NCBI RefSeq assembly: GCF_014332515.1
Contig: NZ_VFSD01000002.1
Span: forward strand, 310,001 to 374,000
DNA length: 64,000 nucleotides
From: Pontibacter beigongshangensis
GTDB lineage: Bacteria > Bacteroidota > Bacteroidia > Cytophagales > Hymenobacteraceae
Direction of reading: 5' to 3'
Made by a program: the position numbers and the translations under genes. A model generated the notes under the pieces. That model was given only the letters and a program-made list of their open reading frames with translations, was not told the origin of the DNA and searched no databases. Below are positions 6,617-19,629 of the stretch, in pieces (the first letter of the stretch is position 1; the number at the start of each line of letters is the position of its first letter).

Positions 6617-8062
6617 ATGACACACAACTTTTTCCAGAACATACACGAGGCGCTGAACAGGCTTCCGGAGGAGGAACTTATCGTTTGGCCATCAGGAGAA
6701 GCAGGTACCGCTGCCGTTTCATTTACAGGCAACGATTTACAAAAGCAGATTGCTGCTACCAGGCATACCATAGAAAACGAGCAGGTACAAAAGGGTCAGC
6801 AGGTGATGCTGGCAATACCAGTCAGCATTAGTCTTATCTGCTCTTTGTTAGCCGTAATGGCCGCAGGCGCTGTGCCTGTTCTACCGCCTGCCAAGGCTTC
6901 TAAATTCATGCTGCTCAAGCTGTTGTACCACAGCAATGTACAAGCGATCTTAACAATAGGGAAACGATCTCTCACCTTCCGTTTGCTGGCCAGAGTCCTT
7001 AACATCAAACTTATCTCTTTAAACCAGGCAGCAAACAGCATTACGGCAACCTGGCTTCCTCCTACACCTGTTTCTCCTGAACAGCCTGCCCTTATTTCCC
7101 ATAGTTCCGGTTCTACAGGCAAGCCAAAGGCCATCTACAGGAGCCATCGTATCCTGCAGGCGCAACACCAGGTGCTCACCCAAATCTTCCCGCCATGGCC
7201 GGGGCTGCGCGACTTTCCGCTCTTCCCCAACATCCTGCTCCACAACCTGTCGCTGGGTACTACCAGTATTTTACCTGATCTTCCCTGGGCTGATCTAACC
7301 CAACTGAATCCGGCACGAATTGTGGAGCAAATAAAAAAGCAGCAGATAGATACAATTACCGGGAATTTATATTATTTTAGAAAGTTGCTTCAGTACCTGC
7401 AACAGCATAACATAGTACTATCGCAGGTGAAGGCAGTCGGCCTAGGAGGCTCTCCTATTACAGAAAGGCTGGCGCATGACCTTAAAACTGTTTTCCCGCT
7501 GGCAACGGTTTACATCATTTACGGGTCGTCGGAGGCAGAGCCTATCGCCGTACGGGAAGTGGGAGCTGTGAGGGAGGACCCGCAGAAGGGATATGCGGTT
7601 GGGGCCGTACATGCTTCGCTGGAATGTAAAATTGAAAGCATAGGCGAAATCGTGCTGCCCGGTGGTGGTGCTTTTAGTGTAGGGGAAATTCAGGTGAGAG
7701 GTGCTCACGTGGTGGCATCAGGAAAAGACGGTTGGCTCAGCACCGGCGACTTCGGCTACCTGGATCGTAATAAAAACCTGTATTTGACAGGCCGCAAAGG
7801 AAACGAGCAACTTCACCAGGGCGTGCAGCATTACCAGTTGGAGCACGTGCTCCAGCACCAGCCAGGTATTTTGCAGGCAGCGGCAATCGCTACGGCAACA
7901 GGCTTTGATATTTACCTGGAAGGAACAGCAAAAGAGGCTGACATCAGGGAAGCGCTGCGGCAGTATTTTCCTGTTCCGGTTATTAAGGGCATATATTTCA
8001 GGGAGCATTTACCAGTAGATTCGCGCCATCATTCAAAAATACTTTACGCCAAAATTACCTAA
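6617..8062 (+). CDS. OleC-like adenylate-forming ligase (acyl-AMP/beta-lactone synthetase type)
   Basis: A 481-aa ANL-superfamily enzyme from ATG 6617; a TTG at 6593 would add 8 residues without homology value. Visible motifs are the P-loop SHSSGSTGKPK (161-171), YGSSEAEPIA, GWLSTGDFGYLD and a C-terminal DSRHHSKILYAKI that carries the A10-type lysine. The block PLFPNILLHNLSLGTTSILPD and the tail PVDSRHHSKI look more like OleC and its fatty-acyl ligase relatives than acetyl-CoA synthetases. OleC makes beta-lactones from beta-hydroxy acids in olefin synthesis, but oleA, oleB and oleD are absent here. The substrate is therefore open. It heads a block with a BtaA-like gene. Confidence 0.75.
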   Translation: MTHNFFQNIHEALNRLPEEELIVWPSGEAGTAAVSFTGNDLQKQIAATRHTIENEQVQKGQQVMLAIPVSISLICSLLAVMAAGAVPVLPPAKASKFMLLKLLYHSNVQAILTIGKRSLTFRLLARVLNIKLISLNQAANSITATWLPPTPVSPEQPALISHSSGSTGKPKAIYRSHRILQAQHQVLTQIFPPWPGLRDFPLFPNILLHNLSLGTTSILPDLPWADLTQLNPARIVEQIKKQQIDTITGNLYYFRKLLQYLQQHNIVLSQVKAVGLGGSPITERLAHDLKTVFPLATVYIIYGSSEAEPIAVREVGAVREDPQKGYAVGAVHASLECKIESIGEIVLPGGGAFSVGEIQVRGAHVVASGKDGWLSTGDFGYLDRNKNLYLTGRKGNEQLHQGVQHYQLEHVLQHQPGILQAAAIATATGFDIYLEGTAKEADIREALRQYFPVPVIKGIYFREHLPVDSRHHSKILYAKIT

Positions 8063-8145
8063 GTGCCACTGCGATTCAATTTTAAAAAAATTTTATACCT
8101 GCATAAGAATTCCCAGGCGGCCAGAGGTCGCGGAATAGCGGTCAC

Positions 8146-8159
8146 GAGCGAGGACGCTC
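8146..8159. repeat. Small hairpin GAGCG-AGGA-CGCTC plus AT-rich tail
   Basis: A 5-bp stem with a 4-nt loop is followed at 8168-8194 by a TTTTTAATTTCTAATTTTTA run. The same run type is found just after both acetylesterase genes at 53.0 and 54.4 kb. Confidence 0.4.
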
Positions 8160-8207
8160 ACGCCATCATAATTTTTAATTTCTAATTTTTAATTTGCGAA
8201 GCAGCGT

Positions 8208-9314
8208 ATGTACTCAGAGTTTTATAACGTGGAGCTGGACAGGATACGCTATTCTTTGGTTTGGGAAGACAGCAACACCCTGTATAAAGCACTGGACATT
8301 AGGCCCGCTGACCACCTGCTAATCATTACATCAGCCGGCTGCAACGTGCTCAACGCGCTACTTAAAGCCCCTGCCCAGATCACGGCTATCGACCTGAACC
8401 CGGTCCAGAACAGGCTGCTGCTGCTCAAAAAGCACCTTATCCTGCATTACGAATACCCTGTCTTCCGGGCACTTCTGGGCCTGGATGGTGCAGCGAGTGT
8501 CAGAAAAACCTGGCAACAAGTGGCTCCTACGCTACCCGAAGACATGCTCCGCTACTGGACACCCTTCTTCCAGAACCACCCCAACGGGCTACTGGCCGCA
8601 GGAAAACTGGAAACATACCTCCATATCTTTTACCATACGCTAAGCAAGCAGCTGAAGGAAAAGCTACAGAAATTAATAACATTTGATAAGGTAACCGAAC
8701 AGTACGACTTCTTTCTGAATGAGCTGCACCTAACGCCATTCCAGCAGCAGTTCACCGATTATTTCGACGAGGCGAACCTGAGCAAAGGCCGCGACCCGAA
8801 GCTGTTTAAGTATGCTGAAGAATCAGGAGGCGCCACATTTTATAAACGGCTGGTGGCGCAGGTGGCGTCGGTGCCGGTAAAGCAGAACTTCTTTTTCCGT
8901 TTTTTCTTTTTCGGACCAACAAACATACCGCCACACCTCCTGCCGCCGTGCTACCAGGAGCAACATTACGAGCAACTACGGCAGCAACTACACAAGCTAA
9001 AGGTAGTAAATGCCGAAGCCATCGATTATCTGCTGTCGGAGGAAGGGCGGCAGCTAAACAAGGTCAGCTTGTCGAACATTTTTGAGTATACCAGTCCCGA
9101 AGAATTTGAGCATGTATACCACAAGCTGTTCTCAGACCCGAACCGAAACCTCCGCATGGTTTTCTGGAACCTGTTGCAGGAGCAGGGAGCCGGTTTACCC
9201 TCCGACCCGTGGTTGAACAGTTCACTTTCAGAAGCGCTTACGGCCACAGATGCCTGTTTTTATTTCAGGAATGTGCGGGTGCAGGCAAATTCATTTTCAG
9301 CTGTAAAAGGCTGA
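8208..9314 (+). CDS. DUF3419/BtaA-like S-adenosylmethionine:diacylglycerol aminocarboxypropyltransferase family protein
   Basis: A 368-aa protein with the BtaA-type start: YSLVWEDSNTLYKAL, then the SAM-binding stretch LLIITSAGCNVLNALL (about 53-68) and AIDLNPVQNRLLLLKKH. BtaA moves the aminocarboxypropyl group of SAM onto diacylglycerol, giving the homoserine head group of betaine lipids. BtaB then N-methylates it. No BtaB-like methyltransferase is present here, so an unmethylated or otherwise decorated product, or another acceptor, is possible. It lies 145 bp downstream of the OleC-like ligase on the same strand. The family assignment is good; the exact reaction is inferred. Confidence 0.78.
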   Translation: MYSEFYNVELDRIRYSLVWEDSNTLYKALDIRPADHLLIITSAGCNVLNALLKAPAQITAIDLNPVQNRLLLLKKHLILHYEYPVFRALLGLDGAASVRKTWQQVAPTLPEDMLRYWTPFFQNHPNGLLAAGKLETYLHIFYHTLSKQLKEKLQKLITFDKVTEQYDFFLNELHLTPFQQQFTDYFDEANLSKGRDPKLFKYAEESGGATFYKRLVAQVASVPVKQNFFFRFFFFGPTNIPPHLLPPCYQEQHYEQLRQQLHKLKVVNAEAIDYLLSEEGRQLNKVSLSNIFEYTSPEEFEHVYHKLFSDPNRNLRMVFWNLLQEQGAGLPSDPWLNSSLSEALTATDACFYFRNVRVQANSFSAVKG

Positions 9315-9366
9315 ACAGACACCGGATTACGGCAAAGGCCCTGGGCAGCAGCAGGTGCAGAGATGT

Positions 9367-9394
9367 CTGGAGGGCACTTTTCATTAGCATAATT
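9367..9394 (+). repeat. CCTCCGGAGG element, copy 4 (degenerate)
   Basis: CTGGAGGGCAC then TTTTCATTAGCATAATT, 53 bp after the BtaA-like stop in sense orientation. The left half of the palindrome is eroded. Confidence 0.65.
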
Positions 9395-9624
9395 CCGGCA
9401 TGCTTGTGTGCCGGTGCTCTTCCGGATTTTCTAATCCGAAAGTTCACTGCCGGGGATTTCCAGACTGAGAAGTCTGGAAGAGCAGAAGAGCAGTAAACCA
9501 GTATGAAAGCCAAGTTATGATACGGTTGCCTGAACTAGCAGATTTCTCCCTGTGTCGAAATGACAAAAATGGAATTAGGCATTCTATAATAAGATTATGA
9601 CTGCAACGCCACTGCCGACAAACC

Positions 9625-9655
9625 AATTATTTGAATAAAAACAGACCTCCGGAGC
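9625..9655 (-). repeat. CCTCCGGAGG element, copy 5
   Basis: AATTATTTGAATAAAAACAG then ACCTCCGGAGC, 82 bp before the APH-like ATG. Confidence 0.7.
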
Positions 9656-9736
9656 TAATGGTGCTGTTGTACAACCTATAGCTAAAACATTGTCAAGTTC
9701 CGGAGCATTAAAATATTGCACCCAAACAACATCCTT

Positions 9737-10933
9737 ATGGAGAGCCACTATTTCACCGCCCCTTTTATACAGCAGCTGATGCGGGAGCACGCGCCGGCCC
9801 AGAACATTACAGTACACAAAGTCACGCCCATACCCGTAGATAACTCTGCGAGTATACTGGTAGTACTGACTGCCGGAAGCACTGATAAATTTATGGGCCA
9901 CTTTGGGCTGGAGGTGACCTACGAGGCAAACGGCATAGCAGAAAAGCGTCGTATGGTGCTGAAAGCCAAGCCCCATGGCGATGAAATTGTTACCATGCTC
10001 AACACCCTGGCACAACTATGCGGCGGCGAGCTGGCTGCGGTATACCCACAGTACAAAGCCCTTACCGGCTTTCAGCATACCCACATGCGCGAACTGGAGG
10101 TGTATGGCAAGCTGCCCAACCACCTGAGCCCGGAGATCTATGGCCTGCGTGCCGAACCGGAGCATGGCGTTTACTTGATTTTGATGGAATACCTGGAGGA
10201 GGTGGAGCTGCTGAATGCCGTAATGCAACCCCAAAAATGGACCGACGCCCACATCAGAACAGCCCTGAAACAGATAGCCCTGTGGCACGCCGCCCACCTG
10301 GAGCGACAGCTGCCATTAGATAAAACCCATTGGACAGACGTACCCTCCAAAGCTTACATGCTGCAGCTGGAGCCCCTGTGGCAGGCACTTCTACAAAATG
10401 CGGCCGACAAGTTTCCGGATCTTTACACGCCAGCCCGGGTGGCGCTGCTGCAACATGCCATTGATAACCTTCCTGCTTACTGGCAGGAGCTAGAGCAGAT
10501 GCCCAAAACATTTATCCACAACGACCTGAACCCGCGCAACACCTGCTTCAGAAGATATGGTTCGGAATTTGAATTCTGCGTGTATGATTGGGAGCTGTCT
10601 ACCTGGCACGTGCCGCAGTACGATGTGGTGGAGCTCCTTAGTTTTGTGCTCGATGCGGAGAAGTACGACCTGCGGGAGGAGTACCTGGAGTTTTACAGGC
10701 AGGAGCTGCACCATCTCACAGGGCAGTTTGAGGACAAGGCGCTCTTTGCCAAAGGCTTTTACCTTGCTGCCTACGATTTTGGGTTGCACCGCCTGGGCAT
10801 GTACATGATGGCACACTCCGTTAGCCCCTACCCTTTCCTGCCGCGCGTGGCAAACAGCTTCTTCAATACACTGGAGCAGGCTCAGGAGGCGTCGATGGAT
10901 TTTCCGAATAAGGCGTACTTAGCCAATTCGTAA
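9737..10933 (+). CDS. APH/choline-kinase-like phosphotransferase
   Basis: A 398-aa protein kinase-like fold enzyme. Brenner's motif is HNDLNPRN (His261, Asp263, Asn268) and the metal-binding Asp is Asp284 in CVYDWELSTWH. Such enzymes phosphorylate small molecules (aminoglycosides, choline, homoserine and others); the substrate here is unknown. ATG 9737 is preferred to TTG 9716, which adds only 7 residues. Placed after a BtaA-like gene, it might act on an amino-alcohol or lipid head group, which is inference. Its last 52 bp overlap antiparallel with the 3' end of the GNAT gene. Confidence 0.8.
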   Translation: MESHYFTAPFIQQLMREHAPAQNITVHKVTPIPVDNSASILVVLTAGSTDKFMGHFGLEVTYEANGIAEKRRMVLKAKPHGDEIVTMLNTLAQLCGGELAAVYPQYKALTGFQHTHMRELEVYGKLPNHLSPEIYGLRAEPEHGVYLILMEYLEEVELLNAVMQPQKWTDAHIRTALKQIALWHAAHLERQLPLDKTHWTDVPSKAYMLQLEPLWQALLQNAADKFPDLYTPARVALLQHAIDNLPAYWQELEQMPKTFIHNDLNPRNTCFRRYGSEFEFCVYDWELSTWHVPQYDVVELLSFVLDAEKYDLREEYLEFYRQELHHLTGQFEDKALFAKGFYLAAYDFGLHRLGMYMMAHSVSPYPFLPRVANSFFNTLEQAQEASMDFPNKAYLANS

Positions 10934-11952
10934 GGCAGCGAATTGGTGAAGTGGGTGGAGTAGTTGTCGGAGCGCATGAGGCAGAAGATCACCTCCTCGT
11001 ACAGCTCCTTAAAGGTTAACATGGTGTAGGCGCCGAGGTACGTCATGAGCCCCTGCTGCCTGAAATCCGGATGCACGCCCACTGTTTTTACCAGCAGCAC
11101 CTTTTCCCGCAGCCTCGGGTAATCGCGGGCAAAGGTTGGTGAAACCCCGGCGGGCAGCGGCAAGCTCTGGTAATTAGGGTGGCAAAAGCTCATGGCTACA
11201 AATTTCTCTGTCTCTTTATGCCGGAACAGCACGGAGGAGTTCGGACAAAGCTTCTGGGCAAAAGCCAAATTATAAAGCATGTTAAACTGCTCCCTGGGCA
11301 CCGGCTTGTAAGCAGGGTTGCTGCCGAATACCTCGTGCACCAGTTCAAAGATTTCCTGCTCGTACTGCTGCCAGGTTTCGGGCGTGAGCGGCACAAAATC
11401 ATACGGAATTTTCTGCACCTCCTCCAGGTACAGTTTCTTGTTCATGTACACAGCTGGTATGTCTTCTTTGCAGATGCACCTGCTCTCAAACAGGCTCTGG
11501 GGGGCGTACCCCAGTTGCTCCAGCAAGCACCCATAGTACACCGGGTTCACCGGCTCCCGATCGAACACACCCCACGAGGGCAGCTCTACCAGCCGCAGCC
11601 GGTAGCGCTGAAACGTATTGAAATGCAGCGGACCTGTGATGTTGGCCTTACCTCTGGCCTTCGCGTCAGCTTCGAACAAAGCAAAAGCCTCCTGGTTTAT
11701 AGAGAGATTATCTGTCGTTTCCCAAAAGCCAAAATGAGCCTCTGCCGAATCTTTCGGGAAGATGCCCACCAGCCGCAACCGCCGATGATCGGTGTAAACG
11801 ATGATCTCGTTTCGTGCGGACTCCAAATCAAACAGCCGTTGTACGGCAGCCGGATCTTCGTGCAGGGTATAAGGCAGTTCCGCATAGAGCGGCGGCACGA
11901 GTGTAAAGAAACTTGCTGGCAAGGTGCCGGTATAGCCAAAGCGGTCTATCAT
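10882..11952 (-). CDS. GNAT-family acyltransferase
   Basis: A 356-aa protein whose C-terminal half carries a GNAT acetyl-CoA loop, KTVGVHPDFRQQGLMTYLG (about residues 287-305). The N-terminal half (about 30-150) has a second GNAT-like alpha/beta layout, so it may be a tandem GNAT. The acceptor is unknown. Its ATG overlaps the stop of the dikinase gene by 4 bp (ATGA), indicating translational coupling and a linked function. Its 3' end runs 52 bp into the convergent APH-like gene. No signal peptide is seen, so it should be cytosolic. Confidence 0.75.
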   Translation of the reverse strand: MIDRFGYTGTLPASFFTLVPPLYAELPYTLHEDPAAVQRLFDLESARNEIIVYTDHRRLRLVGIFPKDSAEAHFGFWETTDNLSINQEAFALFEADAKARGKANITGPLHFNTFQRYRLRLVELPSWGVFDREPVNPVYYGCLLEQLGYAPQSLFESRCICKEDIPAVYMNKKLYLEEVQKIPYDFVPLTPETWQQYEQEIFELVHEVFGSNPAYKPVPREQFNMLYNLAFAQKLCPNSSVLFRHKETEKFVAMSFCHPNYQSLPLPAGVSPTFARDYPRLREKVLLVKTVGVHPDFRQQGLMTYLGAYTMLTFKELYEEVIFCLMRSDNYSTHFTNSLPYELAKYALFGKSIDAS

Positions 11953-14561
11953 GCTACTACTTTTATTTCTCCTGAGCTGCCATTCATCAGCACCCGCTCT
12001 CCAGATTTCAGATGCTTTGTTAGCCCGGGCACATTAATAATAGTGGGAATTCCCAACTCCCGCAACAAAATAACCGAGTGCGAGAGCGAAGAGCCTTTCT
12101 CGATCAGTACGCCCAGGCATGTCGGGAAGAGAGCCGCCCAACCCGGGTCGGTGCGGAGGGCACACACGATCTTTCCGGAAACGTTCAGATCACTACCGGG
12201 TTCTGTGATCACGACCACCTCCCCCGTTACCACTCCCTGAAAACAGCCGGTGCCGCGCAAGAGACCATCGGTCCAACTGGCTGCCTCCACCTGCGCTACC
12301 GGCGGACTTGGCACCACTACCCTTGCCGGCACCTCCACGTTTCTGTACAACTCAAATTCCATTTTCCGGCTCTCCGCTACACCTGCTACTCCGGTTTCAG
12401 CCTCCGCAAGCAATGCCTGCTCTATTTCCTCCTCTTCCAGGTAAAACACATCTGCCGCTGCTGTCAAAGCTCCCTGCTCCTGCAGGTAATGGCCCATGCG
12501 CACATACAGCGCCCGGTACATGCCAAACAGCCGCGTACGCTCCAGCCGCAACGATTCCCGGTACCGGATCGCCTGCTGCAGCTTCTGCAGACTTTCCCTA
12601 ACCTTTTTCTGAAATATGGCTCCCCTGCTGCTGAGTAAATCCTGCAGCTCTGCCTCTGCGGCTGTCTTAAAGTTGGTGTTACTGTCTGTAACAAGGGAAG
12701 GCGCCGTGGTGGAGGCCAGGTAGTTGCACAAGTATTTGTAGAAGATGAGCGGCTGCAGGCGCATGGTCTGCGTTTCCAGCTTCAGTTCGCCTACAGTGCG
12801 GTCGCCGTACTGTGCTATAAAAGCTGCTACCCCGGCATGGAATTCAGAGAACTTTTCCTGCACCTGCTGATGGATAGTTTCGGGCAAATCAAGAATCAAC
12901 TGCTTCAGCTCCTGCTGTTGCCAGGCCTGGTAGGCCAGCTTTTGCATGGCGCGGGTGGGCTGCGTGCTTTCTATCTGGTGATCACCGGAAAGGTAGCGGC
13001 TCAGGAATTCGTCAGTGTCTTTTAAGCCTGCTTTCTTCAGGTGGCGCGCTACCCGGCCATTCATCATCATCACATAAAAATCGTTGATGATGGGCGTGGT
13101 CCAGTTTTGCAGGAGTTCCTGGTCCAGCAGCTTTTTGAGTTTGAGCAGTTCTTCAGGATTTAGAGCCTCTAGCTGCTGCCGGTAGAAATAATGGTAGTGC
13201 TTCTGGAAATGCGCCTGAAAAGCCGGAACAGATTTAGGGAGCCTGCTAAAAGCCCATAGCAGCCGCGACAGGTTCACCAGCAGGCCCGGCAGGAGCTTTA
13301 CTTTTTCTAGCAGTGTCTTTTCCCGGTCCTCCACAAAGTCTACGGGTTCCTCCAGCCCCATCATCCGCTCCATGTCGGCTTTGTTTTGTTTAAAAGACGG
13401 GAGGAGCTGCAGCCCTCTGTACCAGTTGTTGATGTTGTAGTATATGCGCCCCTGCACCAGCCCCAGCAGCTGCGTAACCACCTGCTCCTGTGCCTGCACT
13501 TCCTGCTCCGATAAGCCCAGCACCTGCATAGTTTGCCGGTAAACAGTGGCGTAGGCGCGCCTGGCAAAGCTGAAGGTAAGCGGAGTGGTTACACCGCAAT
13601 AGCTCTCCTGTATGTTGGAGTTGTCGTACACTACTATCTCCGGAATTGCCTGCGTGATAGGCCGTGACTGCACGATAAACAGCTGCTGCTCCGTTACCAC
13701 AAACTCAATGTCCTGCGGAGCACCAAACGCTTTTTCTATTTTTATGCCAGTATTGTAAAGCTCCTGAAGCTGCGGGATGGTTAAACAGGCCGTTGTTTGT
13801 TGTTGTACAGCTACGGCTGCTGTTTGCAGGCCTGCTGCCTCTGCTGCCAGCAACTGTTCCTCTTTTTGGGCCAATACTTCACGATGCAGCTTACCGGCGC
13901 TTTTCAGAAAATAGAATTCGTCCGCATCTGTTGTTCCCTGCACCAGCCCCTCCCCGAAGCCCCAGGTGGCATGAACCGTCAGCTCCTGTGGGTACTCCGG
14001 GAAGGTGGTAAAAAGCACGCCGCTGGCAACTGGCTGCACCTGCTGCTGCAGGATTACAGCCGGTCTTGCTCCGAGTGTCAGGCCTTTCATGTTCCGGTAG
14101 GCGACAGCCCGGTCGCCGTAGGCACTGGCTGCGCATTTTTTGATGGCTGTCAGCACGTCTTCCAGAGTCGTCAGGTTCAGGAACGAATCCATGATGCCGG
14201 GGAAGGCGTCATGCTGCCCGTCTTCATCAGCGATGGAAGACCGCACCACCACCGGCTGCTCCGGGAAATTCCAGCTTTTCAGCACTGCTTTGATCTCTGT
14301 TAAAGTTGATTCAGGAAGCACAAAATCCAGCAACCGCGTCTTTCTTTCTGCAGTAGCAGTGGCAGGCAAATCCTTCAAGGCAGCATCAAACACTTCGGCA
14401 GGAATAACCGCAAAAGGTGGCACGTTCAGGCCAGCGCCCTGCAGCCTGAAAAGTCCACTGGCTTTGCCGCCTATGGTAAAGGCCTTTGCTTGTTGCTGGT
14501 TCTGTAGAAGCATGTTTTTTAAAGGGACAAAGTTATCAAGACCCAGGACTTTTATATTCAA
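11949..14561 (-). CDS. PEP-utilising/rifampin-phosphotransferase-like dikinase
   Basis: An 870-aa protein. The N-terminal ATP-grasp domain (about 1-320) shows IGGKASGLFRL, VVRSSIADEDG, FPGIMDSFLNL and FIVQSRPIT. A long helical middle (about 330-760) of unknown specificity follows. The phosphohistidine swivel domain is at the very end (about 775-865), with the catalytic His828 in SSLSHSVILLRELGIP. PEP synthase and PPDK have a C-terminal TIM barrel that this protein lacks. Its order and length instead match rifampin phosphotransferase, which passes the beta-phosphate of ATP to a small molecule. The middle domain would set the acceptor, which is unknown. It is coupled to the GNAT gene. Confidence 0.8.
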   Translation of the reverse strand: MNIKVLGLDNFVPLKNMLLQNQQQAKAFTIGGKASGLFRLQGAGLNVPPFAVIPAEVFDAALKDLPATATAERKTRLLDFVLPESTLTEIKAVLKSWNFPEQPVVVRSSIADEDGQHDAFPGIMDSFLNLTTLEDVLTAIKKCAASAYGDRAVAYRNMKGLTLGARPAVILQQQVQPVASGVLFTTFPEYPQELTVHATWGFGEGLVQGTTDADEFYFLKSAGKLHREVLAQKEEQLLAAEAAGLQTAAVAVQQQTTACLTIPQLQELYNTGIKIEKAFGAPQDIEFVVTEQQLFIVQSRPITQAIPEIVVYDNSNIQESYCGVTTPLTFSFARRAYATVYRQTMQVLGLSEQEVQAQEQVVTQLLGLVQGRIYYNINNWYRGLQLLPSFKQNKADMERMMGLEEPVDFVEDREKTLLEKVKLLPGLLVNLSRLLWAFSRLPKSVPAFQAHFQKHYHYFYRQQLEALNPEELLKLKKLLDQELLQNWTTPIINDFYVMMMNGRVARHLKKAGLKDTDEFLSRYLSGDHQIESTQPTRAMQKLAYQAWQQQELKQLILDLPETIHQQVQEKFSEFHAGVAAFIAQYGDRTVGELKLETQTMRLQPLIFYKYLCNYLASTTAPSLVTDSNTNFKTAAEAELQDLLSSRGAIFQKKVRESLQKLQQAIRYRESLRLERTRLFGMYRALYVRMGHYLQEQGALTAAADVFYLEEEEIEQALLAEAETGVAGVAESRKMEFELYRNVEVPARVVVPSPPVAQVEAASWTDGLLRGTGCFQGVVTGEVVVITEPGSDLNVSGKIVCALRTDPGWAALFPTCLGVLIEKGSSLSHSVILLRELGIPTIINVPGLTKHLKSGERVLMNGSSGEIKVVA

Positions 14562-15041
14562 TTGATTTTCAGGAAGCTAAATCTTACTTCGACTTAAGAA
14601 ATCATAGTCTTATTTCATCCAGCTACTTAGCATTTTTTGTCCCCCTTTGAAGGGGTAGGGGGATGATTGCCAGTGCAAACAGGTGAAAGTATAGTTTTAA
14701 GGCACCTGAAACAAAAATCAAAATAAACAGCAAAAGCTTTACGGCAGAAATAATTCATTCCCAATCCCTTTCAAAGCTCATCTTGCAGAAAAAGGCAGCT
14801 TGTAGGCCGCTGGAGAGAGCTTGCAGCTCGTATCTTTTTCTCTTTGAACTAAAGCATGTAAAGAATCAACCCTTAACAACTTGATCTTGCCCCTTTTAAA
14901 TTGCCAGTGGGATAAAAGTAAGAGCTGCAAGCTCGCACCAGCGAACGAAACTTAGCGTTTAAGCTTGATTTTCCCTTGTAAGATCCGCCTCAAAAGAGGG
15001 AACAATTAGCACTATTTCCGCTTTGACCAGAGCATCCGCTA
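14562..15041. other. 480-bp gap upstream of the dikinase gene
   Basis: It contains a G/C-tract hairpin-like stretch (CCCCTTTGAAGGGG, 14643-14656) and a long-spaced inverted repeat at 14808-14943. No small gene or clear promoter is seen. Confidence 0.5.
14808..14943. repeat. 22-nt inverted repeat with a 92-bp centre
   Basis: CGCTGG-N3-GAGCTTGCAGCTC (14808-14829) is mirrored by GAGCTGCAAGCTC-N3-CCAGCG (14922-14943). It may be a MITE-like or REP-like palindromic unit; no coding content lies between the arms. Confidence 0.7.
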
Positions 15042-15932
15042 TCAAAAATGCACCTCCACGATAATCGACAAGTAACTAACCAGCATGAAGAGCGAAACGA
15101 ACACCTCTGCCAGCTTCAGCGTTTTTTCCTGTGGCCTGCGGAGCGAGAACAGGTACAGGCCAAGGGTAAGGAGGTACAGCAGCCCCAGCAGCACAAAAGG
15201 CCAGAGCCGGGCTTGCAGCAGCCAGAGCAGGTAACTCTGCACTGCCACCCCCAGCAGCAGAATAACCAGCACCGTTATGATGGCCAGCCCGAAGCCCATC
15301 GATTTGGAGTAGGAATCTACCAGCTCCCGCTCGGCCTCCTGCGCGTGTATCTTGCGGGCTATCTCAAATGAAAAACCACCCAGCAGGCTGAGCATGGCCA
15401 GCATAAAAAAGGTGGTGGAAAGGCCATAGTCTGGCACATAAGCCGACCAGATCCAGAGAATCACCAGGGGCATGATGAGCATGTGCGTGATGGCGTAGAG
15501 CACCAGCCGTTTCTTGAGGTAGTCGCTTACAAAAAACTCGTACCGCATGAGCAGGCTATAGCCTATCGCCAGGGCCCAGCAAACAAAAGTTGGCACGCCC
15601 ATCAGCCAGGCCCAGATTAGCTCTAGTGCCACCCCAGCCAGCGCCAGCACCACCAGTTGCCTGATCGTGACCCGGCCCGACTGCAGCACCCGCTGCGGAT
15701 GGTTGATGGCATCGAGGTCGTAGTCTTTTATCTCATCGAACACCCGCAACCGGAAGAAAAAGGAAATGGTTGCCACCATGCCCAAAACTTCTTTCCAGCC
15801 AAAAACCGGGGGCTCCGCAGCCGCCGAGAAATAGGTTGCCACCGCATGCACCGTCAGGAACAGGATGGCAAACAGAGCCATGTTGATGACAGGGAATCTT
15901 TCCTTAAAATAAGCCCACAGGTTACTGGCCAT
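15042..15932 (-). CDS. UbiA-family prenyltransferase
   Basis: A 296-aa integral membrane protein with about 8-9 helices. The first Asp-rich motif is RVFDEIKDYDLDAINHPQR (Asp66, Asp70, Asp72, Asp74, then HPxR). The second polar loop is FEIARKIHAQEAERELVDSYSKSMG. These fit UbiA enzymes that transfer a prenyl chain to an aromatic or polar acceptor at the inner membrane. The acceptor is not apparent: the gene stands outside a quinone operon, upstream of the RPH-like/GNAT pair on the same strand and divergent from an MMPL exporter. It may belong to a lipid pathway with them (inference). Confidence 0.8.
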   Translation of the reverse strand: MASNLWAYFKERFPVINMALFAILFLTVHAVATYFSAAAEPPVFGWKEVLGMVATISFFFRLRVFDEIKDYDLDAINHPQRVLQSGRVTIRQLVVLALAGVALELIWAWLMGVPTFVCWALAIGYSLLMRYEFFVSDYLKKRLVLYAITHMLIMPLVILWIWSAYVPDYGLSTTFFMLAMLSLLGGFSFEIARKIHAQEAERELVDSYSKSMGFGLAIITVLVILLLGVAVQSYLLWLLQARLWPFVLLGLLYLLTLGLYLFSLRRPQEKTLKLAEVFVSLFMLVSYLSIIVEVHF

Positions 15933-16676
15933 ACTGATGTGTTCTGTAAAATATTTCTTTGGGTTCGGGAGTAATTATTTTATTCATTTGTGCGGCAGCA
16001 AACTACGAAGCAAATGCAGTTGCCCGGTGCACCATTTGAGGCTCCACTCTCTGAGCGTTCAGCGAGTTTTAGAGCATCTTGATTCTTTTGGTTCTTTTTG
16101 TATCAAGACCAAAGTCGTCAGGCTAAGCAAAACGCTTTCGTACTGTTACTTCAGAAAAAGCTGCACCGCTGGCCCTTGTTGGGTGTTTTTCACCAACAAG
16201 CACCGCGGCTGCCCAATATGCAAAAGTATTAAATAAGCGTCTGAAGGCCTTTCTCCTACTTAGTCTGACGGCTATGGTCTTGATAAATAAAGAACAAAGA
16301 ATTCGGCAATGCAATAAGCTGCCCCTGCAGCCAAAGCGGAAAAAGTCTCTCTGCTAACTCAGACAAAAAGCCAATAGTTTTTGCTGTTGCCTCTCGCCCA
16401 CAAGATCCCTTCCGGATGACAAAAGTGGGATGGCTGTTTAGCAACAAGATACTTTCGCCTACCACACAAATGAATTATTCTAATGAAAATGGCCCTCCGG
16501 AGGCTTCTGCTGCTCACACCTGGCAGACAACAAAAAGGATTCGCGCTGTTCGGTATAAATTTCTATATTTAATTCCATCTAGGTATAGAGACAGTTTCAC
16601 CTGATAAAGAATCCTATGTCCTGTGGCTTGATACTTGTGTCTTATTATACTTGTGTCTCTTTACTTACACCCTCCT
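15933..16676. other. 744-bp divergent region between the UbiA and MMPL genes
   Basis: The left part (15985-16115) shares modules with 54.0-54.3 kb: CATTTGTGCGGCAGCAAA (15985-16002), TGAGCGTTCAGCGAGTT (16052-16068) and GTTCTTTTTGT (16091-16101). The right part has a CCTCCGGAGG element at 16473-16515. Open frames here do not look like proteins. Confidence 0.6.
16473..16515 (-). repeat. CCTCCGGAGG element, copy 6
   Basis: AATTATTCTAATGAAAATGG then CCCTCCGGAGGC and CTGCTGCTC, in the divergent UbiA/MMPL region. It is not at a gene end. Confidence 0.8.
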
Positions 16677-18899
16677 ATGCTCCGTCTGCTACACAAGTTC
16701 CGCTATGCCTTTCTGCTGCTTACGGCCGTGGCATGTGTACTGCTGTGGCCGGGGGTAAAAGCGGCCCTGGTCGTGGACAACAGCCTCACCGTCTGGTTTC
16801 TGGAAGATGATCCTGCCCTCGTGCCATACCACACGTTTCAGGAGCGCTTCGGCAACGACGAGGTGGTGATATTGGTAGTCAAAGATAAAAAAAGTCTGCT
16901 CTCGCAGCAGCACTTCGATGCATTTATAAAGCTGAGCCAGGAACTGGAGGCTATACCAGAAGTAGCCGGTGTGATAGGCCCCGGAAATGCCGCTGTGAGC
17001 TCCTACTCCGCCCTTGGCTCCACCACCAAACCACTGCTTGCCGCCAACACCGATACGGCCTGGGTAAAACGGTCACTGGCCGGGCAGCAGGTGCTGCGGC
17101 AGCAGCTGTTTACCGCCGACTATAAAGCTGCCCGCTTACTGATTGTGCTCAAAACCTTGCCCGATTTCGACATCAGGAGAGGCGAAATACTGGACCGGGT
17201 GCAGCAGGTAATTGCCAGGCACCTGCCAGCAGACAGTTACCACCTGGGAGGCGTGGGCATTATTTATGCGGGGCTGAACAAGCTTTCGCAACAGGACTTT
17301 GGTTTCTTTCTGGGGATAGGTTACCTGGTGATGTTCCTGCTCATCCTGTTCATTTACCGAAAACTGCTGCTGCTCGTGTACGCCCTCGGCACGGTGGCGC
17401 TGGCTACCTATATTACGCTGGGTATTTATGGTGCGCTGGGTTTTAGATTAAACCTGATGACGACACTGCTGCCCATCATTATCATTCTGCTCGGCATTAT
17501 GGATGTGCTGCACGTGCTGAACGAACGCAACCAACTAAAGGAGGATCAGGCAAGGCCCACAGAAGCCGCGCTTGCGGCCCTGGCCAATGTTTTCAGGCCC
17601 TGTCTTTTCACCACCCTCACCACTATGGCGGGTTTTCTGGCGCTGGTGGCAAGCCCAATGGCCATTCTGCAGAGTTTTGGAGCGTTTGCGGCATTGGGCA
17701 TTTTCCTCAGCTTTGTATTTACGTTTGTGCTGGGGGTGCTGCTGCTGCCCCATGCACGGCCAGCTACGCAAGCAACAAAAGCAGTCAGTACAGGCATGGC
17801 ACATTTGCTAGGCGTGGTCCTGCAGCGGCCGTGGTGGTTTACGGCTCTTTCGCTGCTCCTTCTGGCAGCCAGCATCCTTGGCATTTTCCGGTTGAAGAAC
17901 GACACCTATACCCTCGGCTACTTTCCGCAGCAGCACCAGGTGGTAACAGATCATCAGGCCATGGAGGCGGCTTGGGGACCTTACATGCCACTGGAATTGC
18001 TGGTGCAGCCAACAGCAGGGAGGCAGCTGCATGATAAGGAGGTAGTGCAGGCCGCAGCCGCTTTTGCTGACTCGGCACAGCAGCTAAACGGGGTGGGGCA
18101 GGTATTCGGTTTCCACTCGCTGTACCAGGCGGGACTGGAGGCACAGTATCAGGAGAAAGGCCCGCTCATGCTGCAAAGCCAGTTTTACCTGGCGCAGGTA
18201 CAAAAGCAGCTAAGCTCCGACTATCCGGAGCTGATGCAGCAGTTTATGCACCTGCCCACGCAGACCGGCCGTATCACCATTTTCGGATCTATGTCGTCGG
18301 CCAGGGAGTTGAGCGCTAAAATGGACTCGCTCCTGCTCCTCTCTACCGCTACGCTGGGCCAGGTGGCCACTGTTACGCCGTCTGGATACCAGCCCATGTA
18401 TGCCGCCATTGTGCAGTACGTAACAGAGTCGCAGGTGAAGAGCCTGCTGCTGGCGCTGGTGCTGGTTTTTCTGCTGGTGTGGCTGTTTATCCGCAACCTG
18501 AAGCTGGCCTTGCTGGCGGTGGTGCCCAACTTTTTCCCGGTCATCCTGATGATGGGATTTATGGGCTGGATGCACATTTACCTCGACACGGCCACCGCCA
18601 GTATCGCCGCCATCGTGCTCAGCTTCTGCATCGACGACACCATTCATTTTATTAACCACTACCAGCAGGCGCGCAAACAAGGGCAAACCGCCGCCCAGGC
18701 CCGCCTCTCTACCATGACGCACGTAGGCCCCGCCATCGTGATTACCAGCCTGGTGCTTTTCCTGTGTTACGGCCTCATGATTTTCGGTTCGCTGAAAACG
18801 GTGGAGCTTTTCGGCATCCTCACTGCTGTCGCCATTGCAGGTGCCCTGTACAGCCAGTTGTTCATTTTTCCGTTGCTGCTGAAGCGGTTTGATAAGTAA
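16677..18899 (+). CDS. MMPL/RND-family membrane exporter
   Basis: A 740-aa protein from ATG 16677 (a TTG at 16635 would add 14 residues). It has the two-fold MMPL plan: TM1 near residues 8-28, a periplasmic loop, a helix cluster at about 205-365, then TM7, a second periplasmic loop and a final cluster (about 595-735). Polar TM residues appear in SFCIDDTIHFINHY and in the GIMDVLHVLNER segment, which are usual for proton-driven RND/MMPL pumps. Relatives often export lipids or hopanoids, which fits the lipid-like enzymes nearby, though the genes are not in one operon with it. Repeat copy 7 lies 51 bp after its stop. Confidence 0.85.
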   Translation: MLRLLHKFRYAFLLLTAVACVLLWPGVKAALVVDNSLTVWFLEDDPALVPYHTFQERFGNDEVVILVVKDKKSLLSQQHFDAFIKLSQELEAIPEVAGVIGPGNAAVSSYSALGSTTKPLLAANTDTAWVKRSLAGQQVLRQQLFTADYKAARLLIVLKTLPDFDIRRGEILDRVQQVIARHLPADSYHLGGVGIIYAGLNKLSQQDFGFFLGIGYLVMFLLILFIYRKLLLLVYALGTVALATYITLGIYGALGFRLNLMTTLLPIIIILLGIMDVLHVLNERNQLKEDQARPTEAALAALANVFRPCLFTTLTTMAGFLALVASPMAILQSFGAFAALGIFLSFVFTFVLGVLLLPHARPATQATKAVSTGMAHLLGVVLQRPWWFTALSLLLLAASILGIFRLKNDTYTLGYFPQQHQVVTDHQAMEAAWGPYMPLELLVQPTAGRQLHDKEVVQAAAAFADSAQQLNGVGQVFGFHSLYQAGLEAQYQEKGPLMLQSQFYLAQVQKQLSSDYPELMQQFMHLPTQTGRITIFGSMSSARELSAKMDSLLLLSTATLGQVATVTPSGYQPMYAAIVQYVTESQVKSLLLALVLVFLLVWLFIRNLKLALLAVVPNFFPVILMMGFMGWMHIYLDTATASIAAIVLSFCIDDTIHFINHYQQARKQGQTAAQARLSTMTHVGPAIVITSLVLFLCYGLMIFGSLKTVELFGILTAVAIAGALYSQLFIFPLLLKRFDK

Positions 18900-19058: not shown

Positions 19059-19382
19059 TTAGTCAACAAAGGTTTCCTTAATCACACTCTTGCAAGCAGC
19101 TACTTCTGAAGGGCTCAGATTCCCTAACACTTTTATGATACGGACTTTACCAATGGTTCTGATCTGGTCAATCACTACCCACCCCGTTTGATTATTATGC
19201 TTCACTTTCACACGGGTTGGATAGCTACGACTCTTTGTAGTCATCGGAGCAATAACTACTGTTTTTAGGTTATGATTCATCTCATCCGGAGATATTACCA
19301 CACAGGGCCTTGTCTTTTGTATTTCACTTCCCATTGTGGGGTCCAGGTTCACCAGGATTATCATATATTGGCTTATTTCCAT
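19059..19382 (-). CDS. mazF: MazF/PemK-type mRNA interferase toxin
   Basis: A 107-aa protein with the MazF fold signature: VNLDPTMGSEIQKTRPCVVIS near the N-terminus and VVIAPMTTKSR. The catalytic pair seen in MazF is present as Arg25 and Thr48. WVVIDQIRTIGKVRI completes the dimer/active-site strand. It should cleave mRNA when free of its antitoxin. The start overlaps the last 10 bp of mazE, the usual coupled order of antitoxin first. Confidence 0.92.
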   Translation of the reverse strand: MEISQYMIILVNLDPTMGSEIQKTRPCVVISPDEMNHNLKTVVIAPMTTKSRSYPTRVKVKHNNQTGWVVIDQIRTIGKVRIIKVLGNLSPSEVAACKSVIKETFVD

Positions 19383-19618
19383 TCTTCGAAGTTTTCATCC
19401 CCAAAAACATCATCCAATAAAAGTTGGTCCTCCCCGTTTTCATGCATTTGCCTGAATGCCTTATCCCAGCCTTTTCTTGGCTGCTCAACAGGCTTTAAAA
19501 TAATCTGGCCCTTCTCTAGAATTAGCTCAACTTTATCCTTGATGTTATACCTTTCCAGAATGGACTTGGGCAGCCGAAGTCCTTTTGAATTTCCTATTTG
19601 GATGATTGATATTTCCAT
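19373..19618 (-). CDS. mazE: MazE-type antitoxin (AbrB/SpoVT DNA-binding)
   Basis: An 81-aa protein with an N-terminal AbrB swapped-hairpin domain (about 1-45: IIQIGNSKGLRLPKSILERY) and an acidic, probably unfolded tail (about 50-81) that would wrap and block MazF. It is the first gene of the minus-strand pair and overlaps mazF by 10 bp. A palindrome that contains a -7 box lies 12-40 bp upstream of its start and is the expected place for autorepression. Confidence 0.92.
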   Translation of the reverse strand: MEISIIQIGNSKGLRLPKSILERYNIKDKVELILEKGQIILKPVEQPRKGWDKAFRQMHENGEDQLLLDDVFGDENFEEWK

Positions 19619-19629
19619 TGTTTTTTAAT

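Follow-up and report, generated by a model that had tools for sequence, protein, structure and literature searches.

Seven neighbouring genes in Pontibacter beigongshangensis raise the question of whether they belong together and, if so, what they make. They lie on contig NZ_VFSD01000002.1 in the window analysed here, by which we mean the whole stretch of 64,000 nucleotides, part of a 5.75-Mb draft genome. A sequence-only reading had placed seven open reading frames at positions 6617-18899 and had likened them to a locus for the synthesis and export of a lipid or small molecule. All seven were found at these positions and Pfam confirmed the families of all but D (Table 1, genes A to G). We conclude that the seven genes almost certainly form one functional unit, and that the cluster very probably encodes a single pathway, so far undescribed, for the synthesis and export of a lipid tagged with an amino acid. 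The suggestion that no known complete pathway fits agrees with our comparisons, in which no described pathway matched. The families of the parts are known, the combination appears undescribed, and there is some chance of a distinct lipid class. In the open literature we found no description of a matching cluster; only unrelated papers on ebo and lipocone turned up.

The evidence that the genes belong together comes from their neighbourhood in other genomes. B is present in 22 of 150 genomes of the family: the window's own, 19 others with a close copy, which we call type I, one (L049) whose divergent copy lies in a cluster of a second layout (type II), and one (L050) where the gene has different surroundings. 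At 18 of the 19 type I copies outside the window, A to F all lie within about 12 kb; at L045, B and C alone remain. G is found nearby, intact or cut by the region edge, in 15 of the 19, and as a 76-residue remnant in one (L046). A wider search of 84,980 species genomes, a set that overlaps with the family genomes as both sample the same species, gave 51 loci. The 37 type I loci among them belong to Hymenobacteraceae, Spirosomataceae, Sphingobacteriaceae, Flavobacteriaceae and Saprospiraceae, with Pontibacter, Hymenobacter, Pedobacter, Gramella and Nonlabens among the named genera. They contain A 35 times, B 37 times (36 detected and one fused B-C frame), C 35, D 36, E 35, F 34 and G 22 times, counts that are affected by several contigs ending within the cluster and cutting some loci. 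All or nearly all of the set is found again in more than 30 species, and the flanking genes are not common to the type I loci. The pairwise distances of A to F correlate at 0.86-0.94 over 26 loci, as expected for co-inherited genes, a correlation that is partly due to species kinship.

The arrangement itself has been remade repeatedly. The three transcription units described by the sequence-only reading exist in the window (A-B-C on the plus strand, D-E-F on the minus strand and G on the plus strand), and in several relatives all seven genes are on one strand (L082, L084, L092 and L094 have such seven-gene layouts). Besides the ABC/DEF/G order of the window we find ABCFEDG, ABCEDFG and loci with D-E-F and G inverted. 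The genes remain together despite these changes. Chance adjacency of unrelated genes had been considered possible in view of the three units and the long gaps in the window, but the set is kept in more than 30 species through inversions and reordering while the flanks change, which refutes this explanation and leaves it with next to no probability. The sequence-only reading had itself named a missing neighbourhood in relatives as grounds for refutation, and the genes came through this comparison. We propose that the cluster has spread horizontally.

Signs of decay were also seen. Hymenobacter ginkgonis (L045/L088) is reduced to B and C, an MMPL remnant occurs at L046, and at L041 and L035/L101 C or E seems to be divided between two frames. 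In Hymenobacter rubripertinctus B and C form a single 806-aa frame (L080, 9917-12337), which comes from one draft genome where a sequencing slip is possible.

Table 1. Genes of the cluster with their window coordinates, strands and family assignments.
Gene	Assignment	Position	Strand	Details
A	AMP-forming acyl ligase, PRK09274/OleC-like	6617..8062	+	481 aa; Pfam AMP-binding 111 bits
B	DUF3419 (BtaA-like) S-adenosylmethionine (SAM):3-amino-3-carboxypropyl transferase homologue	8208..9314	+	368 aa; Pfam DUF3419 154 bits
C	APH-fold kinase	9737..10933	+	398 aa; Pfam APH 53.8, EcKL 43.6 bits
D	Predicted tandem-GNAT acyl- or acetyltransferase	10882..11952	-	356 aa; AlphaFold model
E	Rph-type dikinase	11949..14513	-	~854 aa from ATG at 14513; PPDK_N 187, PEP-utilizers 60 bits
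F	UbiA-superfamily transferase	15042..15932	-	296 aa; Pfam UbiA 56.3 bits, cut-off 34.2
G	MMPL/HAE3 RND-type exporter	16677..18899	+	740 aa; Pfam MMPL 90.5 bits, cut-off 20.5

What the unit makes is suggested by two further layouts, reached by searching the order with a B profile and the phylum with an F profile, in which the core of A, B, D, E and F recurs at 20-32% identity. Type II consists of a gene resembling HMG-CoA reductase (HMGR), F, E, B, a phytol-kinase-like gene (PF01148, a weak match), D and A; the HMGR-like and phytol-kinase-like genes occur together at L055, L057 and L122-L126. Type III consists of a diacylglycerol (DAG) kinase or PhyK-type kinase, F, E, D and B, often with phosphatidylserine (PS) decarboxylase and fatty-acyl-reductase-like genes. 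At L127 the DAG kinase is accompanied by PS decarboxylase and a male-sterility-type (fatty-acyl-reductase-like) reductase, and L128 has the same two partners with a PhyK-type kinase replacing the DAG kinase. Type III also extends to archaea, with one complete cluster and one fragment. One metagenome-assembled genome (MAG) of the Thermoplasmata (L107, JAGGZU010000086.1) carries B, DAG kinase, F, E, a WbuX-type amidotransferase, A and D, and a second Thermoplasmata MAG (L145) has DAG kinase, F and E on a 3078-bp contig. As the genes of the two MAGs are 53-69% identical, contamination of one bin is an unlikely explanation.

The enzyme that would supply the amino acid group is B, whose SAM-binding motifs are kept, with AxDxN and SNIFEY conserved, and whose closest named relatives are in Pontibacter pamirensis (75% identity) and P. 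diazotrophicus (74%). Its membership of DUF3419, the BtaA family, could suggest a classical or modified betaine lipid, diacylglyceryl-trimethylhomoserine (DGTS), with methylation supplied elsewhere in the genome. A tree of B unites types I and II with most of type III (97/89) and sets them apart from the clade of canonical BtaA proteins obtained in the same searches (99/99); the archaeal B was unplaced. The missing BtaB had been pointed out before, and we find no BtaB methyltransferase in any type I-III cluster, whereas in four of the five canonical BtaA copies checked the adjoining genes are methyltransferases, BtaB-like. We take this to mean that B, judged by its sequence, belongs to a lineage sister to BtaA and functions in the absence of BtaB. 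DGTS synthesis moreover requires none of A, C, D, E and F, and we regard a DGTS product as highly unlikely. Another BtaA-like context without BtaB was observed at L050 (8689-13573) and at L063, L064 and L065 (about 9.4-14.4 kb), with acyl-ACP-reductase-like, fatty acid desaturase, aldehyde-decarbonylase-like and GNAT genes, and a patatin gene in L063.

In the alignment of the acyl ligase A the P-loop, TGD and DxRHxxK motifs are intact, as is the A10 lysine, and the motifs are present in 34-35 of 35 relatives. Its nearest NCBIfam model is PRK09274 of the OleC-like group (220 bits against a cut-off of 478), and the OleC models give 79-103 bits with cut-offs of 850-900. D reaches 16 bits against Acetyltransf_1, under the cut-off, and no Pfam family passes for it; the top PDB matches of its AlphaFold model (predicted local distance difference test, pLDDT, 90) are tandem GNATs, and on this modelled fold we class D as one. 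The catalytic sequences of the kinase C, HNDxNxRN for the HxDxxxxN loop and YDWE for the DxE/DxD metal site, are kept and recur in 34 of 34 relatives. The fold search with its model (pLDDT 91) points to a generic small-molecule or alcohol kinase, with homoserine, choline, ethanolamine and steroid kinases among the matches, and such a predicted fold fails to name the substrate. A sequence search of the PDB gave no match for C or D and a chance match alone for B. Against the NCBIfam HAE3 model G scores 169 bits, under the model's cut-off.

E has the domain architecture of a rifampin phosphotransferase: an ATP-grasp domain, a middle (substrate) domain and a C-terminal swivel His domain. The nearest solved structures are rifampin phosphotransferases (family profile 385 bits), and E retains the equivalents of Rph Arg666, Glu667 and His825; the swivel His and the Arg-Glu pair of Rph have been shown to be essential (PMC4844700). 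Phosphoenolpyruvate synthase, the name of the top-scoring NCBIfam models, under their cut-offs, is contradicted for E by the absence of a pyruvate-binding domain in our domain analysis. The likeness to Rph raises the question of whether the cluster might be a resistance or detoxification island, with APH-like, GNAT, Rph-like and RND proteins acting against antibiotics, and indeed four of the seven genes are in superfamilies that include resistance enzymes. But the scores are far under resistance-specific cut-offs (246 of 999 bits for E with the Rph-specific NCBIfam model), no NCBIfam resistance model matches C or D, and A, B and F do not suit such an island. The core also recurs with lipid genes, archaea included, and we find a resistance role hardly credible.

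F keeps the first Asp-rich motif of UbiA enzymes (DExKDxxxD, with D66, D70 and D74 invariant), but its second DxxxD motif is replaced by E190xxR193K194 ... E201, in which the E, R and K are invariant, archaeal members included. By sequence, this replacement sets F apart as a UbiA subfamily of its own, and it leaves the use of an ordinary diphosphate donor uncertain.

The HMGR-like protein of type II might at first be taken for a supplier of mevalonate. However, six type II genomes (G125, G193, G281, G207, G411 and G662) carry the methylerythritol phosphate (MEP) pathway gene ispG, with weak partial matches at most to mevalonate-diphosphate decarboxylase, and in five of these six the cluster gene is the sole member of the HMGR family. 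Two type II genomes with the mevalonate pathway (G458 and G548) have a second HMGR elsewhere. The HMG-binding serine is replaced by glutamate in 9 of 9 type II copies (L049, L055, L057, L058, L066 and L123-L126, of which L055 and L066 are almost identical copies from sister genomes), and the usual catalytic GH is altered in 4 of the 9; we assume for this serine and histidine the roles that they have in human HMGR. MEP hosts without the decarboxylase, the second HMGR in mevalonate hosts and the exchange of serine for glutamate together indicate that the HMGR-like protein is an enzyme of the cluster's own pathway and probably not a mevalonate supplier. This suggests that type II may reduce the acid or thioester product of A to an alcohol, much as the type III reductase would do. 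Type I has no reductase, so its alcohol must originate elsewhere. In two MEP-pathway Hymenobacter genomes a further gene of the HMGR family, encoding 518 aa, lies in surroundings unrelated to the cluster (L142 4207-5763 and L143 4132-5688).

From the genes, their retained catalytic residues and their association, all of which are directly observed, we infer the substrates, the step order and the product. The pathway might start with phosphorylation of a hydrophobic alcohol, by C in type I, by the phytol-kinase-like enzyme in type II and by DAG kinase in most of type III. E, as a small-molecule dikinase (ATP to AMP and phosphate), would then add a further phosphoryl group to the alcohol or a partner substrate, and F could move the activated alkyl or prenyl chain onto an acceptor, giving an ether or ester. 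B would use SAM to attach the aminocarboxypropyl group to a hydroxyl. A may activate a carboxylic acid whose acyl group D passes on, most simply to the homoserine amino group, before G exports the product. In type III, PS decarboxylase could strip the carboxyl from the same amino acid group. That the steps follow exactly this order is doubtful. An exported homoserine-type lipid, as the sequence-only reading proposed, remains the most natural reading, but its phosphorylated head group does not: nothing shows such phosphorylation, and since the kinase slot is filled by different lipid kinases across the layouts, phytol-kinase-like and DAG kinases among them, it would be the lipid alcohol that is phosphorylated and not the head group.

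Several observations weigh against this pathway. The missing second Asp-rich motif of F makes the usual prenyl-diphosphate donor doubtful. C is missing from two Pedobacter clusters, and G is missing or out of view in many loci, so neither is strictly needed. D of the window shares only about 20-25% identity with its counterparts in types II and III, and no A is in view at L127 and L128.

It is also conceivable that the cluster exports a secondary metabolite of small size, carrying a prenyl or alkyl group and an amino acid, with the dikinase and the adenylating enzyme acting as in the assembly of prodigiosin-type or other natural products. E scores 237-250 bits against the prodigiosin ligases PigC and RedH, UbiA enzymes frequently prenylate small aromatics, and the patchy, transfer-prone distribution and the dedicated RND-type exporter would suit such a compound. 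Yet none of the clusters contains a polyketide, non-ribosomal peptide synthetase or aromatic-forming enzyme, the related clusters have lipid-type partners (DAG kinase, PS decarboxylase and the phytol-kinase-like protein), and characterised relatives of B act on diacylglycerol. We consider a secondary metabolite unlikely, although a serious candidate. An aminocarboxypropyl (homoserine-type) lipid or lipid-like compound is our preferred product, and we hold it to be rather probable.

A broader interpretation can be put forward tentatively. The core F-E-B-D(-A) might make an undescribed class of amino-acid-headed, probably ether-linked lipids in Bacteroidota and, by transfer, in Thermoplasmata. 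Its enzymes would include a UbiA transferase of a new subfamily, an Rph-like dikinase turned to lipid building, lipid-alcohol kinases that can replace one another and, for type II, an HMGR homologue recruited away from isoprenoid synthesis. If this is true, bacteria common in soil and water, together with some archaea, possess a whole lipid class of undescribed structure, and the Rph-type dikinase, UbiA and HMG-CoA reductase families have an unrecognised job in lipid building. The compact one-strand operons of some Hymenobacter make the pathway directly testable by single-operon transfer.

The window offered a few further observations. A 27-bp interspersed repeat, CCGGAGGGCCATTTTCATTAGAATAAT, has 9 copies at up to 3 mismatches (0 expected), at positions 1734, 5940, 16474, 19812, 40593, 45339, 45565, 52965 and 57895; the four within the first 20 kb are all intergenic. 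Downstream of G, on the minus strand at 19059-19620, lies a small gene pair that by sequence resembles a MazF/PemK toxin and an AbrB/MazE antitoxin. No Rfam RNAs were found in the window.

How does the cluster compare with known systems? The Ole olefin and beta-lactone pathway differs in its other enzymes: as had been remarked before, OleA, OleB and OleD are lacking, and no such thiolase, hydrolase or reductase is in the cluster. The ebo operon is likewise a patchy bacterial cluster with a UbiA-like gene (EboC), but F scores 22 bits against the EboC model (cut-off 250) and no other gene is in common. In the comparison with Rph and the small-molecule dikinase family (PpsAB, HpeHI), E shows the domain order of Rph and the three catalytic residue equivalents; it differs from Rph in its score far under the cut-off, its middle-domain sequence and its lipid-type cluster setting. 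BtaA/BtaB is similar in the DUF3419 aminocarboxypropyl transferase homologue with its SAM motifs, and different in that B is in a separate clade, in a cluster with six additional conserved enzymes and without BtaB. Archaeal ether lipid synthesis is brought to mind by the nearest solved structure to F, digeranylgeranylglyceryl phosphate synthase (6m31), and by the related clusters in Thermoplasmata, but glycerol-1-phosphate dehydrogenase, PcrB and CarS are absent from the cluster. Co-occurrence with PcrB (geranylgeranylglyceryl phosphate synthase) elsewhere in the genome was uninformative as a clue, the gene being present in 39 of the 39 family genomes tested, with or without the cluster. Within the UbiA superfamily, F stands as a protein with the UbiA domain and the first of the two Asp-rich motifs. 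Plant phytol salvage employs the kinases VTE5 and VTE6 and the UbiA-type VTE2. E is unrelated to VTE6 and F departs from the usual second motif, but the logic, and the logic alone, is alike: an alcohol kinase is combined with another enzyme that phosphorylates and with a UbiA transferase.

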